From: an uncultured Bacilli bacterium
GTDB lineage: Bacteria; Bacillota_I; Bacilli_A; RF39; UBA660
NCBI GenBank assembly: GCA_947589725.1
Contig: CANQCQ010000034.1
Location: 1 to 9,003 of the forward strand
Length of the DNA: 9,003 nucleotides
Direction: 5' to 3'
This document shows, one piece after another, positions 1 to 7,033 of this stretch. Position 1 is the stretch's first letter; each line of letters starts with the position of its first letter. Both the position numbers and the translations under genes were made by a program. The notes below the pieces were generated by a model. That model did not search any database. It was not told the origin of the DNA and worked only from the letters and a program-made list of their open reading frames with translations.

Positions 1-726
1 ATCCTCTATTTTAGTTTTAAATCTTGGAGCACGATAAAAATAGTCATCTTCTTTATAAAATTCGATAGCTTCTTCATCAGGATTATCAAATTCAGTTTGA
101 TTTTGAATAACAGGTAATTTTTTAGTAAAGCAAGTCTCATCATATGATATATAATTTCCTATGTTATTTATAATTATAGAGTTGTTCATTATGATAATTC
201 TTAATCCCATTATAAAAATGATATCTCCATACTCTAAGGTTTGACTGGAAACTGCCACACCATTAACATAAGTACCATATTTACTACTTAAATCAGTAAT
301 TTTCCATACCCCATTATATAAACTAAGTTTTGCATGTTGGGTAGAAACTAAAGGATTAAGATAACTAATACTTGCTCTTGTATCATTTCCTATTAAAAAA
401 TCTCTATCAGCTTTGGCAGATAACGTAATCATTGATTTATCTGCATCTGGAGAACAATATAAAATTACATATTCATTATCGGTATTAATTCTTAAAAAAA
501 AGATACTATAATCACTTAAATAAGCAGAATCTATTTCTTTTGGACCAGACATTATTTTTGTTTCAAAGTCACTTTTTATTTTCCATTTTCCATTTACTTC
601 TTCAACATTTATAAGATTTCGTGTATTTCCCAAATAATCTGTATCAGTGATCCAATAATTACCAGCTACTGTTACAGGTAAATAAAAATTAGTTATTTTA
701 CTTTTTTTAATTAGCCTAACTATCAT
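1..726 (-). CDS. essC: Type VII secretion ATPase EssC, N-terminal part (cut by window edge)
   Basis: The first 242 residues are visible; the gene continues past the left edge. Residues about 108-157 form a recognisable FHA domain: LIGND near 111-115, VSTQHA at 127-132 (the S..H motif) and the KYGTYVNG turn at 149-156. Residues 1-95 look like the more divergent first FHA domain that EssC proteins carry. Near the end, YFYRAPRF (229-236) resembles the FHRSPRI segment that precedes the membrane helices in Staphylococcus EssC. EssC/YukB is the membrane-bound FtsK/SpoIIIE-type motor of the Bacillota type VII secretion system; its helices and ATPase domains would lie outside this window. The start ATG at 726-724 is chosen because GGGGTGA lies about six bases upstream, and a well-formed promoter precedes it. 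No EsxA, EssB or EsaA gene is visible here. The FHA call is firm; EssC identity rests on N-terminal architecture only. Confidence 0.8.
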   Translation of the reverse strand, partial: MIVRLIKKSKITNFYLPVTVAGNYWITDTDYLGNTRNLINVEEVNGKWKIKSDFETKIMSGPKEIDSAYLSDYSIFFLRINTDNEYVILYCSPDADKSMITLSAKADRDFLIGNDTRASISYLNPLVSTQHAKLSLYNGVWKITDLSSKYGTYVNGVAVSSQTLEYGDIIFIMGLRIIIMNNSIIINNIGNYISYDETCFTKKLPVIQNQTEFDNPDEEAIEFYKEDDYFYRAPRFKTKIED

Positions 727-2282: not shown

Positions 2283-2627
2283 TTAAAGCTTTTTAATTAG
2301 TTGCTTTTCACTTTTAGTTAGTTCTTCATTTATGTTTTCACAATTTATGCTTTTATCTTCAATCTTATCACTTAATAAAGCAAGTTCTTCATCGTTTAAT
2401 GATTCGATATATGTACTAGCATTTCTATATATTGTTTGTAGAGTTACAGAATAAGCTGTAGCAGCAGTTGTTGTTGCACCTGTAGCTAAAGATGTCAATC
2501 CTAATCTTTTAGCTTTTCCACTTTTGATTTTTCCATCAACTATAGTGCTTTTACCTATATTTAATGCAGTATATGCACTACCTACTAAACTAGTTGAACT
2601 AAATAATGAGTCTCCACTTATAATCAT
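2283..2627 (-). CDS. Hypothetical protein, Ala/Thr-rich, second gene of a two-gene operon
   Basis: I do not recognise this 114-residue protein. The first 30 residues are Ser/Gly/Thr-rich. Residues about 40-66 are small and mildly hydrophobic (LATGATTTAATAYSVTLQ), perhaps one membrane-associated helix. The last 45 residues are charged and helical (ESLNDEELALLSDKIED, ending in a Lys/Glu-rich tail). There is no clear signal peptide. Its ATG overlaps the stop of the preceding gene as ATGA, and a perfect GGAGGT (2641-2636) eight bases upstream lies inside the end of that gene, so the two are translationally coupled and likely act together. A terminator follows directly. Function unknown. Confidence 0.75.
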   Translation of the reverse strand: MIISGDSLFSSTSLVGSAYTALNIGKSTIVDGKIKSGKAKRLGLTSLATGATTTAATAYSVTLQTIYRNASTYIESLNDEELALLSDKIEDKSINCENINEELTKSEKQLIKKL

Positions 2628-3373
2628 ATTTTTTTACCTCCAATATTATTAGTTTTAATATTTCTTTTATCTTTTTCAATTTTTATTAAAGCTTTTAATT
2701 GTTCTAGCTCTTCTTTACTATTTATATTACTAATAATCTCATCTATATTTACTATATCTTTCTTTTCTTCTATTTTTTTATTTATTAATAAATATGCATC
2801 TTTATATTTTTCCATTTGTTGATTTTCTTTTTTTTGTTCTTTTAACCTTAATTTTTCTTCTAATCTTTTGATACGATTAATATTATAATTTTGAATATTA
2901 ATACATTCAAAATTAGTAAATGTACTTAATGCCTCATAAAATGTAAATACTGTAGCAAGAGGAAAACTCTTAATCATACCAACTATACCAATTGGTAATA
3001 AAATTAAATTATAGATTAAATTTCTTTGATGTATAGCTTTATTCCAATTTAGTTCATTGATAAATTGTGTTGGTTGATCAATATTAATATGATAATTAAT
3101 ATTTTCATTTTTATTATATTCTTTTCTAAGTAACATTTTCTGCATAGTTGCATTTCTTTGTATTAAATCTATTTCATTTTTGTCTTTTAATTTTTTAATT
3201 TGTTTATTTTTATTTGAATCAATAATCTTATCAGCAATTTTTATGTAATTAGGAATAATTGCTTTAACAATCTTCCATTTTACTTTTTCTACTGAAAAAA
3301 CAAATTTTTGAAATTTTAATGCGCCCAGCTTTTTTGATAATTCTATTTTCTTATCATAAATATTATCTGGCAT
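2624..3373 (-). CDS. Hypothetical membrane-associated coiled-coil protein, first gene of a two-gene operon
   Basis: A 249-residue, very Lys/Asn/Ile-rich protein I cannot assign. Residues 1-85 are basic and probably helical. Residues 118-134 (LIYNLILLPIGIVGMI) and 137-158 form two adjacent hydrophobic stretches that could be a membrane hairpin. Residues 165-203 are a charged heptad-like helix (RLEEKLRLKEQKKE), likely a coiled coil, and about 208-235 is a second short helical segment. The ATG at 3373 is preferred: AGGGG lies nine bases upstream, whereas the in-frame TTG at 3382 directly abuts that site. It has its own promoter, ends in TGA overlapping the next ATG, and interrupts the usual truA-rplM junction. 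Arg codons are mostly AGA, unlike the ribosomal genes. Possibly acquired; function unknown. Confidence 0.8.
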   Translation of the reverse strand: MPDNIYDKKIELSKKLGALKFQKFVFSVEKVKWKIVKAIIPNYIKIADKIIDSNKNKQIKKLKDKNEIDLIQRNATMQKMLLRKEYNKNENINYHINIDQPTQFINELNWNKAIHQRNLIYNLILLPIGIVGMIKSFPLATVFTFYEALSTFTNFECINIQNYNINRIKRLEEKLRLKEQKKENQQMEKYKDAYLLINKKIEEKKDIVNIDEIISNINSKEELEQLKALIKIEKDKRNIKTNNIGGKKI

Positions 3374-3474: not shown

Positions 3475-4203
3475 TTAATAATTAACTTTATATAAGTAAA
3501 GACCACAAGCTGGAGCTGTTCTTCCAGACTTAGTTCTGTCCTTACTTTCTAATACATTTATTATATTAGATGGTTGTACTTTATTTTCTCCTATTTTAAT
3601 TAAATAACCTACCATATTTCTTACTTGATATCTTAAAAAACCATCTCCTATAAATGTTAATATTAGTTTTTCTCCTTCTTCCTCTACTTTTGTTTTAAAT
3701 ATCGTTCTTATGCAATTTTCTTTTTCCTTATTTTCTGTTACAAAAGCTCTAAAATCATGAGTACCTTCAAAATACTTTATTCCTTCTTTTATCGCGTCAA
3801 TATTCAAATTATAATTGTATTGGAAAACATAATTTCTTTCTAATGGATTATATTCTCCTAAATTAATAATGTACTTATATTCCTTACTTTTAATATCATA
3901 TCTAGCATGAAAATTATCTGGTACTTGTTTTGTTTGTATAACATGAATATCATTTGGTAAGTTACTATTTAAAGCTCTTTTTAGTTTGTATTCGTTTATT
4001 TCAACATCTATATCAGCATGTCCATATTGAGATAATGCATGAACACCTTTGTCTGTTCTTCCAGTAGATACAATCTTAGTAGGCTTATCATTAACTATGC
4101 TTAAAGCTTTTTCCATTTCTTCTTGAATAGTATGTAATCCTTTTTGGGTCTGAAAGCCAGAATAATTTGATCCATCATATGAAAATTTTATTAAATACTT
4201 CAT
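3475..4203 (-). CDS. truA: tRNA pseudouridine(38-40) synthase TruA
   Basis: TruA converts uridines 38-40 in the anticodon arm of many tRNAs to pseudouridine. The 242-residue product has the family features: N-terminal FSYDGSNYSGFQTQ, the catalytic motif GRTDKGVHA with Asp51, FHARYDIKSKEYKY, HDFRAF, and the C-terminal FLRYQVRNMVGYLIKIG and RTAPACGLYL. Length is normal. The ATG at 4203 is chosen because AGGAG lies seven bases upstream and MKYLIKFSYDG is the usual TruA beginning; an ATG six codons earlier has no such site. Ten bases separate it from the preceding ABC gene, whose TAG stop is part of the TruA Shine-Dalgarno, so it is probably co-translated with it. In relatives ecfT sits between; here it is absent. 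Confidence 0.97.
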   Translation of the reverse strand: MKYLIKFSYDGSNYSGFQTQKGLHTIQEEMEKALSIVNDKPTKIVSTGRTDKGVHALSQYGHADIDVEINEYKLKRALNSNLPNDIHVIQTKQVPDNFHARYDIKSKEYKYIINLGEYNPLERNYVFQYNYNLNIDAIKEGIKYFEGTHDFRAFVTENKEKENCIRTIFKTKVEEEGEKLILTFIGDGFLRYQVRNMVGYLIKIGENKVQPSNIINVLESKDRTKSGRTAPACGLYLYKVNY

Positions 4204-4213
4204 ATTTTCACTC

Positions 4214-5002
4214 CTATACATGTTTATAAATATCTTTAATAATATCTCTAATATCTTTATGATAGTCTATTTTAACTTCTTTATTTTTTCTGGCTAAATA
4301 TGTAAACATTGCTATTAGGGGAACATTAATTCTATTTCTTTTTAAAAAGTCAACTCTTGCGAATATGTCTTCAGTTTCTCCTTCAATTAAAACTTGATTA
4401 TTTTTTATAACTATTACTTCATCTGTATATTTATAAAGAATGTCAGGATTCTCACTTTTTATAATAATAGTTTTATTATATTGTTCTTTTAATTTTCTAA
4501 GTAACATAAATAAACGCTTTTCTTGTTTTAAATCCAAATATTTGAATGGTTCTTCTAATATTATTGTATCAGGATTTGATAATAGACCTATTGCTATTGT
4601 GATTAACTTTTTCTCTGATGATGATAAAGTAATTAAATCATGATGTATGTATTCATAATCTAATCCTATTATCTTTAATGAATCTTTAATTTTTTTTAAA
4701 GGATCTTTTAAATTTATATAAAATAATCTTAAATGATGATTCATTAAATCTTCTACTGTTTTTAAGTAGTTAGGAAATATTATACTATCTGATACTTGAG
4801 ATATTCTTTTTCTATTCATAAAAATATCATCTTTTGATATTTTTTCATTGTTTATTATAATAGATCCTTTGCCTATATTTTTTAGACTTAATAAATTATA
4901 TATACTATGATCTATATCATTCATTAATCCAGTAATTTTATTATGATGTACAACTAGATTTATATCTTCTTCTAATTTATAATTTGAAAAAACTAATTCC
5001 AT
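4214..5002 (-). CDS. Degenerate EcfA2-like ABC ATPase-family protein
   Basis: A 262-residue protein with the fold order and position of EcfA2, an ATPase of energy-coupling-factor vitamin transporters. Its nucleotide-binding motifs are largely gone. Where Walker A should be there is GLMNDIDHS (25-33), with no GK[ST]. The Q-loop Gln position is Asp72, the signature is LSSSE (126-130), Walker B is IILEEP (147-152, first Asp to Glu but the second Glu kept) and the switch His position is Glu184. The D-loop LD (156-157) remains. INVPLIAMFTYLARK (225-239) matches the EcfA C-terminal LdvPfvtkLa element, supporting descent from EcfA. It overlaps the preceding ABC gene by ten bases (coupled translation; weak own Shine-Dalgarno) and is followed by truA. 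The reading frame is intact, so it looks maintained, not decayed. Likely partners with the upstream protein; not expected to hydrolyse ATP alone. Confidence 0.75.
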   Translation of the reverse strand: MELVFSNYKLEEDINLVVHHNKITGLMNDIDHSIYNLLSLKNIGKGSIIINNEKISKDDIFMNRKRISQVSDSIIFPNYLKTVEDLMNHHLRLFYINLKDPLKKIKDSLKIIGLDYEYIHHDLITLSSSEKKLITIAIGLLSNPDTIILEEPFKYLDLKQEKRLFMLLRKLKEQYNKTIIIKSENPDILYKYTDEVIVIKNNQVLIEGETEDIFARVDFLKRNRINVPLIAMFTYLARKNKEVKIDYHKDIRDIIKDIYKHV

Positions 5003-5787
5003 AGCTTATCAATCATCCTATTTATATCTAGTTCTACTTCATTTATTAAGTTATAGTCTTTTAATTTTACGGATAAGTCAATCATAAATGGTACTCTAAT
5101 TCCAGATTTATTAAGTATATTGTCTTTTTGTAGTACTTCTAATGGAGCACCTGATAAAATAATTTTACTATCTGATAGTATAAACAATTTATCTGTTTGT
5201 AATATATCTTCCAGTCTTGTTGAAACTATCAATACCGTTAGATCATAGTTTTTTATTAAATATTTTAAATAATTTACAATATCTATTACTTCTTCACTTT
5301 TTAAATAATTAGTAAGATCATCAATTAAAATTATTTTAGGCATTGTTGCAATGACTAATGAAATTTGCAAAAATAATTTTTCATTACTTGCTAAGTCTTT
5401 AATCTGAGTTTTCTTTAGTTTACTTAAGTTTAAATTTTTATAAATGCTTTTTAATCTTTTATTTTTCTCCTCTTTACTTAAAAATAATTGATCTATATAA
5501 TAATTTAGCTCTTCTTCTACAGTGTTATGAATGAAGCAGATTTCATTTGGAATAATTGCTTTCACTAATTTATTATAATCAGTTAGTTTATATTCATCTA
5601 TTTTTTTATCTAATACTGTAATATCTTCTTGAGAATCAATTTGCTTTGCTAAAATTTTAAGAAGAGAAGTTTTTCCACAATTATTAGGTCCAGAAAGTGA
5701 AATTATTTTATTTTTTTCAATACAAAAAGATAAGCCTTTAATAACATTTAAATAATTTAGTTCTTTTATATTGATACTGTCAACCAT
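4993..5787 (-). CDS. Degenerate EcfA1-like ABC ATPase-family protein
   Basis: A 264-residue protein in the EcfA1 position. Walker A is intact (GPNNCGKTS, 33-41). Downstream motifs deviate: the Q-loop Gln position is Ile79, the signature is LASNE (132-136) instead of LSGGQ, Walker B ends ILIDD (153-157) with Asp in place of the catalytic Glu, and the switch His position is Thr190 (IVSTR). NTVEEEL (88-94) and GIRVPFMIDLSVKLK (229-243) match EcfA landmarks. It could bind ATP but probably hydrolyses it poorly. The ATG at 5787 is chosen because GGAGGTG (5799-5793) lies five bases upstream; an upstream in-frame extension of 18 residues is hydrophobic and unlike the family. The last ten bases overlap the next ABC gene. 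Normally an EcfT membrane protein and a substrate-binding S protein complete this transporter; neither is encoded here. Confidence 0.78.
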   Translation of the reverse strand: MVDSINIKELNYLNVIKGLSFCIEKNKIISLSGPNNCGKTSLLKILAKQIDSQEDITVLDKKIDEYKLTDYNKLVKAIIPNEICFIHNTVEEELNYYIDQLFLSKEEKNKRLKSIYKNLNLSKLKKTQIKDLASNEKLFLQISLVIATMPKIILIDDLTNYLKSEEVIDIVNYLKYLIKNYDLTVLIVSTRLEDILQTDKLFILSDSKIILSGAPLEVLQKDNILNKSGIRVPFMIDLSVKLKDYNLINEVELDINRMIDKLWN

Positions 5788-5841: not shown

Positions 5842-5858
5842 CTTTATTTATGTGACTT
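5828..5858 (-). terminator. Weak terminator-like hairpin after the SDR gene
   Basis: AAGTCA (5858-5853) can pair with TGGCTT (5840-5835), six pairs with one G-U and a 12-base loop, followed by nine T. The 5' arm lies inside the last SDR codons. The short stem and large loop suggest partial termination at most. Confidence 0.4.
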
Positions 5859-6599
5859 TCTTCTTTGAATATTGTATATAACTTTTAATAATAATTTATC
5901 AGATGCAAATCTTTGGAAAAATTTTGCAAGACGCATTTTTATTCCAGGAATAATTAGCATTTTTCCCTTAAACATATTATCTATCGCATATTTTGCGACA
6001 AAACTACTACTATATGGTTTTATTGCAAATTCTACATTCGCAACATTGTTAAAGTTTGTTTTTACTGGTCCAGGACATAGTACTGAAATTTTGACATTTG
6101 ATTTTTTCTTTTTCTGTTCATAATATAAAGCTTCTGTTAAATTATAAACATAAGATTTAGTACTATAATAAGTTGCCATTAAGGGGCCAGGCTGAAAAGC
6201 AGCACTTGATGATACATTTAAAATATACCCATAATTTTTCTTTTCCATATCGCGAAGAATAGATTTTGTTAAAATATGTACTGCCTTAATATTTACATCA
6301 ATCATTTCTAATTCTTTAGTTAAATCTGCTTGAGTAAAATCACCAAATAAACCAAAACCTGCATTATTTATTAAGATGTCTATATTTTCTTTTCTAATCA
6401 ATGCATAAAGTTCTTTAACTTTTTGTTCGTTTGCTAAATCGGCAACAATTATTGTAACCTTTGTTGGTAAGGATCTTTGGATTTCTTCTAGTTTTTCTTT
6501 ATTTCTTGATACTAAAATTAATTCACATTTTTTAGTAGCTAGGTATTTAGCCATATCAAGACCTATTCCTGAAGATGCTCCTGTTATAAGTGCTATCAA
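5844..6599 (-). CDS. Short-chain dehydrogenase/reductase (SDR), classical type
   Basis: An NAD(P)-dependent oxidoreductase of about 251 residues. Numbered from the TTG start, the cofactor motif TGASSGIG is at 6-13, NNAG at 78-81, the structural Asn in DVNI at 101-104, catalytic Ser131 in NVSSSA, Tyr144 and Lys148 in YYSTK, and PGPVKTNF at 176-183. All active-site residues are present. The substrate cannot be inferred; the overall look is that of the DltE/YqjQ-type SDRs. I chose TTG at 6599: AGAGGTGG (6612-6605) lies five bases upstream and overlaps the alternative GTG at 6608, which therefore cannot use it. The product then starts MIALITGASSGIG, normal for SDRs. It is inserted between rplQ and the EcfA-like pair, with its own extended -10 promoter. 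The C-terminus is basic (RRKSHK). Confidence 0.92.
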   Translation of the reverse strand: MIALITGASSGIGLDMAKYLATKKCELILVSRNKEKLEEIQRSLPTKVTIIVADLANEQKVKELYALIRKENIDILINNAGFGLFGDFTQADLTKELEMIDVNIKAVHILTKSILRDMEKKNYGYILNVSSSAAFQPGPLMATYYSTKSYVYNLTEALYYEQKKKKSNVKISVLCPGPVKTNFNNVANVEFAIKPYSSSFVAKYAIDNMFKGKMLIIPGIKMRLAKFFQRFASDKLLLKVIYNIQRRKSHK

Positions 6600-6604
6600 A
6601 CAAA

Positions 6605-6679: not shown

Positions 6680-7033
6680 TTATTTTGATTCATCTACTAA
6701 TTTTAAAACAACCATTAAAGCGTCATCTCCACGTCTTTCAGTCATTTTTAAAATTTGAGTATATCCACCATTTCTATTTTCATAACGTTTAGCTAAATCA
6801 TTGAATATTTTATCAACAACTTCAGTATCGTTATGTAAGAATGCTAATGCTTTACGACGAGCAACTAAGTCACCTTTTTTTCCGTAAGTAATCATTTTTT
6901 CAACAAACTTACGTACTTCCTTGGCTCTAGTTTCAGTAGTTGTTATGCTTTCATTCATAACTACTTGTTTAGTCTGTGTCGCAAGCATACTTCTTCTATG
7001 TTTGTTATCTCTTCCTAATTTTCTATATGCCAT
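6680..7033 (-). CDS. rplQ: 50S ribosomal protein L17
   Basis: The 117-residue protein matches bacterial L17 (bL17): [18 protein letters not shown] at the start, [20 protein letters not shown] in the middle, and the C-terminal [26 protein letters not shown]17 sits near the peptide exit tunnel of the large subunit. The start has AAGGAGG eight bases upstream, directly after the rpoA stop, so rpoA and rplQ are coupled as in nearly all bacteria. It is the last gene of the operon: a strong terminator follows within ten bases. Length is normal. Confidence 0.98.

Follow-up and report, generated by a model that had tools for sequence, protein, structure and literature searches.

Genes and motifs between rplQ and truA

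The window (the whole stretch of 9,003 nucleotides analysed here) carries on its minus strand, in this order, rpsM, rpsK, rpoA, rplQ, an SDR gene, two adjacent ABC genes called here A1 and A2, truA and two hypothetical genes, and continues with rplM, rpsI, a small membrane ORF and an FHA-domain ORF. The genes that we take to be rpsM, rpsK, rpoA, rplM and rpsI were named by recognition of their sequences. Both the A1 and the A2 frame are intact, with a 10-base overlap, and the start of truA lies ten bases past the A2 stop; the coordinates bear out the original prediction that ecfT is absent and that truA follows after ten bases. The features that concern the pair are the following:

6680..7033, minus strand: rplQ, the upstream anchor, assigned by sequence recognition and gene order, with no family search
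5844..6602, minus strand: SDR oxidoreductase gene directly upstream of A1 (PF00106)
4993..5787, minus strand: A1, EcfA1-derived ABC ATPase by its best NCBIfam model, 264 aa from ATG; best Foldseek matches are ECF ATPases
5668..5691, minus strand: A1 P-loop (Walker A) GPNNCGKT, residues 33-40, conserved and kept in 103/103 EcfT-less loci
5377..5394, minus strand: A1 signature remnant LASNEK, residues 132-137, degenerate in the motif tally
5317..5334, minus strand: A1 Walker B, residues 152-157, with D156 kept and D157 at the position of the catalytic Glu
4996..5148, minus strand: A1 C-terminal domain, residues 214-264, conserved in the alignment
4214..5002, minus strand: A2, EcfA2-derived ABC protein by its best NCBIfam model, 262 aa; best Foldseek matches are ECF ATPases
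4907..4930, minus strand: site of the lost P-loop of A2, residues 25-32, from the alignment
4745..4747, minus strand: A2 L86, in the alignment column of a probable coupling-groove acid
4610..4627, minus strand: A2 signature LSSSEK, residues 126-131, of which the form LSxSE is conserved in the motif tally
4217..4276, minus strand: A2 C-terminal tail, residues 243-262, VKIDYHKDIRDIIKDIYKHV, highly conserved among the close kin of the window
3475..4203, minus strand: truA, at the place where ecfT would start (PF01416)

At the downstream end, the FHA-domain ORF near rpsI (window 1-726, minus strand, identified by Pfam) is cut by the window end. Downstream of truA, the gene at 2624-3373 (minus strand) belongs to an uncharacterised family with one hydrophobic segment, in which NYH and C-x-N-x-Q residues are invariant across 23 aligned members; its protein has no Pfam match over cut-off.

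The pair had been predicted to have lost one Walker A, both Q-loop glutamines and both switch histidines, with non-canonical signatures, and all these losses were found. A1 carries the signature LASNE and has neither the Q-loop Gln nor the H-loop His, and A2 is devoid of P-loop, Q-loop Gln and H-loop His, with LSSSE as its signature and EEPF as its Walker B. The set of two P-loops, LSGGQ signatures, catalytic Glu and switch His that characterises EcfA proteins is thus incomplete in the window pair.

As importers, ECF motors are a textbook case, and they have a central place in Bacillota that are auxotrophic for vitamins. The best NCBIfam models of the two proteins are EcfA1 for A1 (TIGR04520, 111.5 bits against a cut-off of 315) and EcfA2 for A2 (TIGR04521, 91.1 bits against a cut-off of 330), so that neither is assigned as an equivalog. 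Structures predicted with AlphaFold2 (pLDDT of 86.5 for A1 and 92.2 for A2) display the ABC ATPase fold and the EcfA C-terminal domain in both proteins, and when the predicted folds were compared to the PDB with Foldseek, ECF ATPases ranked first for both, with a TM of about 0.8. By sequence profile, the best PDB match of A2 is EcfA2 4mki_B. In the corresponding search with A1, EcfA1 matches span residues 16-264 (8bmr_A, 107.5 bits) and are slightly outscored in total by two-domain ABCB4 chains (111-112 bits). TVEEEL and VPFMIDL are both found in A1, and Pfam detected in A1 and A2 no domain besides overlapping P-loop ATPase models. The place is that of the rplQ-ecfA1-ecfA2-ecfT-truA order, as relatives of the same order of bacteria have A1-A2-EcfT-truA, some of them with rplQ upstream. 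Same place and same fold indicate that A1 and A2 descend from EcfA1 and EcfA2. The pair had been described as EcfA-derived and sitting at the conserved place; best NCBIfam models, Foldseek and gene order in relatives all agree with this, and a placement outside the EcfA family was looked for in the NCBIfam and Foldseek results and not seen. Compared to the group II ECF module EcfA1-EcfA2-EcfT, the window pair shares the place before truA, the gene order, the overlapping ecfA genes and the fold, but it has no EcfT, only one P-loop, and neither catalytic Glu nor switch His at the site that is kept. Two features go beyond what had been predicted: the SDR gene between rplQ and A1 and the asymmetry of the motif loss, which leaves one composite ATP site. 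The existence of a shrunken EcfT in relatives could not be read from the window.

Loci with full, shrunken and no EcfT

Protein searches at E ≤ 0.001 returned 355 relatives of A1 and 667 of A2, of which the best 120 in each case were listed. A collection of genomes from 84,980 species was then scanned with A1-tail patterns, giving at least 80 loci. One of them, L080, was rejected as a locus of the pair, since its 42 bits to the A1 profile are noise. The titles of the 79 scan loci read Bacilli, Bacillales, Bacillota, Erysipelotrichaceae, Firmicutes, Tenericutes, Candidatus Faecimonas or unclassified bacteria, and 78 of these loci show A1-A2-truA without an ORF between A2 and truA, L055 being cut. 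Among 288 genomes drawn from the order of G001 (the genome of L001), 153 matched the A1 profile at E ≤ 1e-35 and 64 had an EcfT above the PF02361 cut-off. Two hundred loci entered the parse, made up of the 79 scan loci, 120 further loci from genomes of this order and the window. Nine (L055, L109, L123, L124, L126, L128, L160, L164 and L183) were dropped because A1-A2-truA could not be read in one piece, which left 191; L080 and the short L081-L101 stayed outside the parse, with longer cuts (L202-L221) standing in for L082-L101.

The 191 parsed loci comprise 103 with no ORF between A2 and truA, 32 with a shorter ORF and 56 with a full EcfT, the last class being defined by limits that we set (at least 235 aa and more than 100 bits to our own EcfT profile), just below which falls L120 (245 aa, 98 bits). 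The shorter ORFs are 189-230 aa long in 29 of 32 cases. Thirty of the 32 were compared as profiles in eight groups, six of which match the full-EcfT profile at 86.9-99.5% probability; the two weak groups, S198 and S208 (three loci), are called EcfT on their position alone. Taken singly, 26 of the 32 short ORFs match the EcfT profile at 50% or more, whereas 25 membrane ORFs, drawn at random as a control from the 51 others in these loci, all reached at most 0.8%. A profile of 16 short forms also finds EcfT, at the EcfT place, in 17 of 23 full-EcfT genomes. By these profile comparisons, the short ORFs between A2 and truA are in most cases EcfT homologues.

In the 103 EcfT-less loci the ecfT place itself was read through, and A2 to truA is uninterrupted. 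Elsewhere in the genome, none of the 34 related EcfT-less genomes searched, which correspond to 34 of the 79 scan loci, had an EcfT above the PF02361 cut-off. Because PF02361 misses most short EcfT forms, a short-form profile was added; it matched none of the 34 genomes, and since it also missed 7 of 17 genomes with a known shrunken EcfT, a very divergent remnant could escape it. A co-evolving EcfT encoded elsewhere, which would have spoken against the original prediction, was thus not found in these 34 genomes, within this sensitivity. A sub-threshold PF02361 match in G009 (L081) was rejected as EcfT, as no ORF above 150 aa is EcfT-like there, with hhalign giving at most 0.7%. The S-component model PF12822 gave one sub-threshold match in the 34 EcfT-less genomes, and matches in 6 of 23 full-EcfT and 0 of 23 shrunken-EcfT genomes. 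PF07155 and TIGR04518 had no match in 80 genomes, including 23 with a full EcfT, which makes these models weak in this order. The S components of the full-EcfT genomes of this order are divergent or absent, and standard models match few of them. At three loci (L186, L191 and L193) EcfT is missing, and PF02361 detected none in their genomes, but A1 and A2 each keep their P-loop and catalytic Glu; these are probably recent EcfT losses.

Two neighbours were followed across the loci. The SDR gene lies directly upstream of A1 in 85 of 101 EcfT-less, 16 of 30 shrunken and 8 of 55 full loci with this neighbour in view, and is possibly a lead to a functional partner of the pair; shared ancestry may account for the adjacency. 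The family of the gene at 2624-3373 occurs in 20 of 34 EcfT-less, 4 of 23 shrunken-EcfT and 0 of 23 full-EcfT genomes, and was rejected as a replacement partner, not being obligate in the EcfT-less genomes.

ATP sites, coupling residues and selection

Motif loss is asymmetric between the two proteins. The P-loop is present in A1 and A2 in 48 and 50 of the 56 full loci (L205, whose A1 row is faulty, with a masked stretch, and reads like A2, is counted among them), in 31 and 4 of the 32 shrunken loci, and in 103 and 9 of the 103 EcfT-less loci. The one shrunken locus without an A1 P-loop is L169, where A1 is cut at the contig end, so this is no real loss. Ninety-four of the 103 EcfT-less loci have a P-loop in A1 only and nine have both; the predicted motif losses and absence of ecfT do recur across a clade and are not a chance occurrence. 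The tail-pattern scan made no use of P-loop residues, and the A1 P-loop is also present in 25 of 25 EcfT-less loci found outside that scan (window included). A mirror image was seen in L111, L112, L113, L116, L119, L121 and L122, in which A1 has lost its P-loop and EcfT is 251-256 aa long; five of these seven loci retain the A2 P-loop. The A1 P-loop can thus be lost, and this is seen only where EcfT is full.

The catalytic residues of A1 follow another course. From full to shrunken to EcfT-less loci, the catalytic Glu is found in 40/56, 2/32 and 7/103 and the switch (H-loop) His in 33/56, 2/32 and 2/103, with Asp at the Glu position in 57 of the 103 EcfT-less loci; the Walker B Asp is found in 54/56, 32/32 and 103/103. 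In the EcfT-less loci, the A2 signature retains its Ser-2 (94/103) and Glu (100/103) and carries a Ser in position 4 (89/103), and the A1 signature scatters. One composite site is therefore kept, mostly without its catalytic Glu and His. The alignments indicate that the composite site formed by the A1 P-loop and the A2 signature is maintained by selection and that the other site is mostly gone. As judged from its residues, the kept site probably binds ATP but hardly hydrolyses it. Because the A1 P-loop is present in all EcfT-less loci, a purely structural, nucleotide-free role is disfavoured and we favour a nucleotide-binding heterodimer as the likely state of the pair.

The coupling residues of EcfT were tallied in the same classes, with a gap at L146 where a wrong ORF had been taken as EcfT. 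The coupling arginine for EcfA1 is present in 49/56 full vs 3/32 shrunken EcfT, and that for EcfA2 in 46/56 full (plus 7 Lys) vs 24/32 shrunken (plus 4 Lys). On the ATPase side, the groove-acid column of A2 holds Glu in 55/56 full, Glu or Asp in 28/32 shrunken and Glu in 7/103 EcfT-less loci, and that of A1 holds Glu in 91/103 EcfT-less loci; these columns are, by alignment, probable coupling-groove acids. The pattern suggests an order of events in the clade of the window in which EcfT came off A1 and the A2 ATP site was lost, then EcfT was lost, and then the docking acid of A2. Outside this clade EcfT can go first, as in L186, L191 and L193, which keep both P-loops and both Glu. In the 78 loci found by the tail patterns, the A2 tail has a pair identity of 0.82 vs 0.44 for the protein as a whole; the values are 0.49 vs 0.34 overall in the 25 other EcfT-less loci and 0.49 vs 0.43 in full-EcfT loci. 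For the A1 tail, identity is 0.45 vs 0.33 overall in the 25 EcfT-less loci outside the scan (window included), and we use A1 tail conservation as secondary evidence, as it is inflated by the use of tail patterns in the genome scan.

For 91 of the 191 loci, a tree was computed from ribosomal proteins together with RpoA and TruA (IQ-TREE quick mode, midpoint root), with the mirror-image loci left off; full modules were taken as ancestral because they are canonical in form. The window falls in a clade of 47 rows (SH-aLRT 100) in which 19 shrunken and 28 EcfT-less loci are intermixed and no full EcfT occurs. EcfT-less loci apart from this clade are L192, the group L184/L188/L195, L179, L201 and L191. 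Full EcfT against the rest requires at least 7 changes on the tree (6 when only starred branches are trusted), the A2 P-loop 7 changes, and the A1 P-loop a single one, which is the cut row L169; FastTree on 143 loci gave identical counts for all three characters. In 6 independent contrasts, A2 P-loop loss followed EcfT loss in 1.8 on average and A1 Glu loss in 3.7 with 0.2 in the opposite direction, neither being significant with so few contrasts. The association of EcfT loss with motif loss rests mostly on one clade.

The frames are open in all 191 parsed loci, with A2 short (207-214 aa) in L184, L195 and L201. Selection was estimated from 31 independent pairs of close loci. In EcfT-less loci, A1 (n=17) and A2 (n=16) both have a median dN/dS of 0.13, and in full-EcfT loci (n=10 each) the medians are 0.13 and 0.14, respectively; the median is 0.08 (EcfT-less) and 0.16 (full) for TruA, 0.03 for RpoA in EcfT-less loci and 0.19 (4 pairs) for shrunken EcfT. 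The pair is under purifying selection as strong as in full-EcfT relatives. Without EcfT it is less constrained than TruA (0.13 vs 0.08), with values of 0.13-0.14 vs 0.16 in full-EcfT loci. These intact ORFs and medians uphold the earlier view that the frames are intact and the pair maintained; relaxed selection and frame decay, which would have contradicted it, were looked for by dN/dS and not seen.

Possible roles of a pair without EcfT

We propose that a former ECF transporter motor may have been turned stepwise into a heterodimer that works without EcfT as a nucleotide-dependent switch or scaffold, a reading to which we give about an even chance of being right. Its more specific form, in which the pair would be a soluble, single-nucleotide heterodimeric sensor-switch that arose from a full EcfT via a shrunken one that had lost its EcfA1 anchor to none, is plausible and held more tentatively. 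As far as sequence tells, the pair would have no ECF-transporter function despite its descent from one. A1 and A2 would form an EcfA-type heterodimer holding one nucleotide at the interface of the A1 P-loop and the A2 signature. Hydrolysis would be slow or nil, the Asp in place of the catalytic Glu being possibly compatible with slow hydrolysis, and nucleotide binding would close the dimer as a switch and not drive a cycle. The conserved C-terminal helices could pass the output on to a partner that is cytosolic or peripheral.

Some heterodimeric ABC transporters, such as TM287/288 and TAP, have a degenerate ATP site, and in them the kept site is the catalytic one. The window pair resembles this class in its asymmetry, one composite site being kept and one lost, but differs from it in that its kept site is mostly without Glu and His and that it has no transmembrane domain. 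As reported in the accessible part of the source, an ECF module in which both catalytic Glu are changed to Gln (L. delbrueckii ECF 2EQ) binds Mg-ATP and closes without hydrolysis (PMC10368641). The window pair may behave alike, judging from its residues; 2EQ, in contrast, is engineered, has two nucleotides bound and retains EcfT. The plant ABCI10/ABCI11, as presented in the accessible part of PMC6828968, are likewise ECF-type ATPases in an unusual setting, and ABCI11 is without the full Q-helix motif, but in plants they are accompanied by the T subunit ABCI12. EcfA pairs that lack EcfT were not found described in the titles and abstract beginnings searched in the open-access literature, and the accessible parts of PMC4820897 and PMC4993169 hold nothing decisive on such a pair.

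The pair might instead still energise transport, together with a membrane partner unrelated to EcfT and encoded elsewhere in the genome. Such a partner could dock on A1, whose groove acid is kept without EcfT (Glu 91/103), and the A1 P-loop is present in 103/103 EcfT-less loci; but the probable groove acid of A2 was lost with EcfT (Glu 7/103), A1 is mostly without catalytic Glu and switch His, PF12822 gave a single sub-threshold match in 34 EcfT-less genomes (S-component models being weak in this order), and the only conserved downstream family tested, that of 2624-3373, is present in just 20/34 of them. We regard continued transport as unlikely, if worth keeping in mind. A slow ATPase with a mechanical role outside transport, like soluble ABC proteins that act on macromolecules, would account for the survival of P-loop, Walker B Asp and signature at one site, and the Asp at the Glu position in 57/103 loci may permit weak hydrolysis; against this, the H-loop His (2/103) and the Glu (7/103) are nearly absent, and Pfam finds no further domain in A1 and A2 of the window. 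This role seems to us quite improbable.

The loss of so many canonical motifs, in 34 genomes that are small (0.8-2.2 Mb), could also be read as the slow decay of pseudogenes. Frames that stay open in 191 loci, a median dN/dS of 0.13, on a par with intact relatives, P-loop and C-terminal residues that are invariant and the conserved gene order make this reading very hard to sustain. As for the loss of ecfT in metagenome assembly, the EcfT-less genomes do appear from their titles to be metagenome-assembled, yet A2 adjoins truA in 103 loci from many projects, with a gap of -23 to +40 bases in 98 of the 103; because the EcfT-less arrangement recurs in this way, we consider an artefact refuted.

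A single operon can be traced in its relatives from the full module to one with a shrunken EcfT and on to one without, its ATPases staying under purifying selection. This natural series can be used to ask about the role of every ATP site and coupling arginine in an ECF module, and it points to a function of the pair that is kept in small-genome gut bacteria, met here only as metagenome-type records. If our proposal is true, an ABC pair would read the nucleotide state instead of pumping in a large clade of small-genome gut Bacilli.
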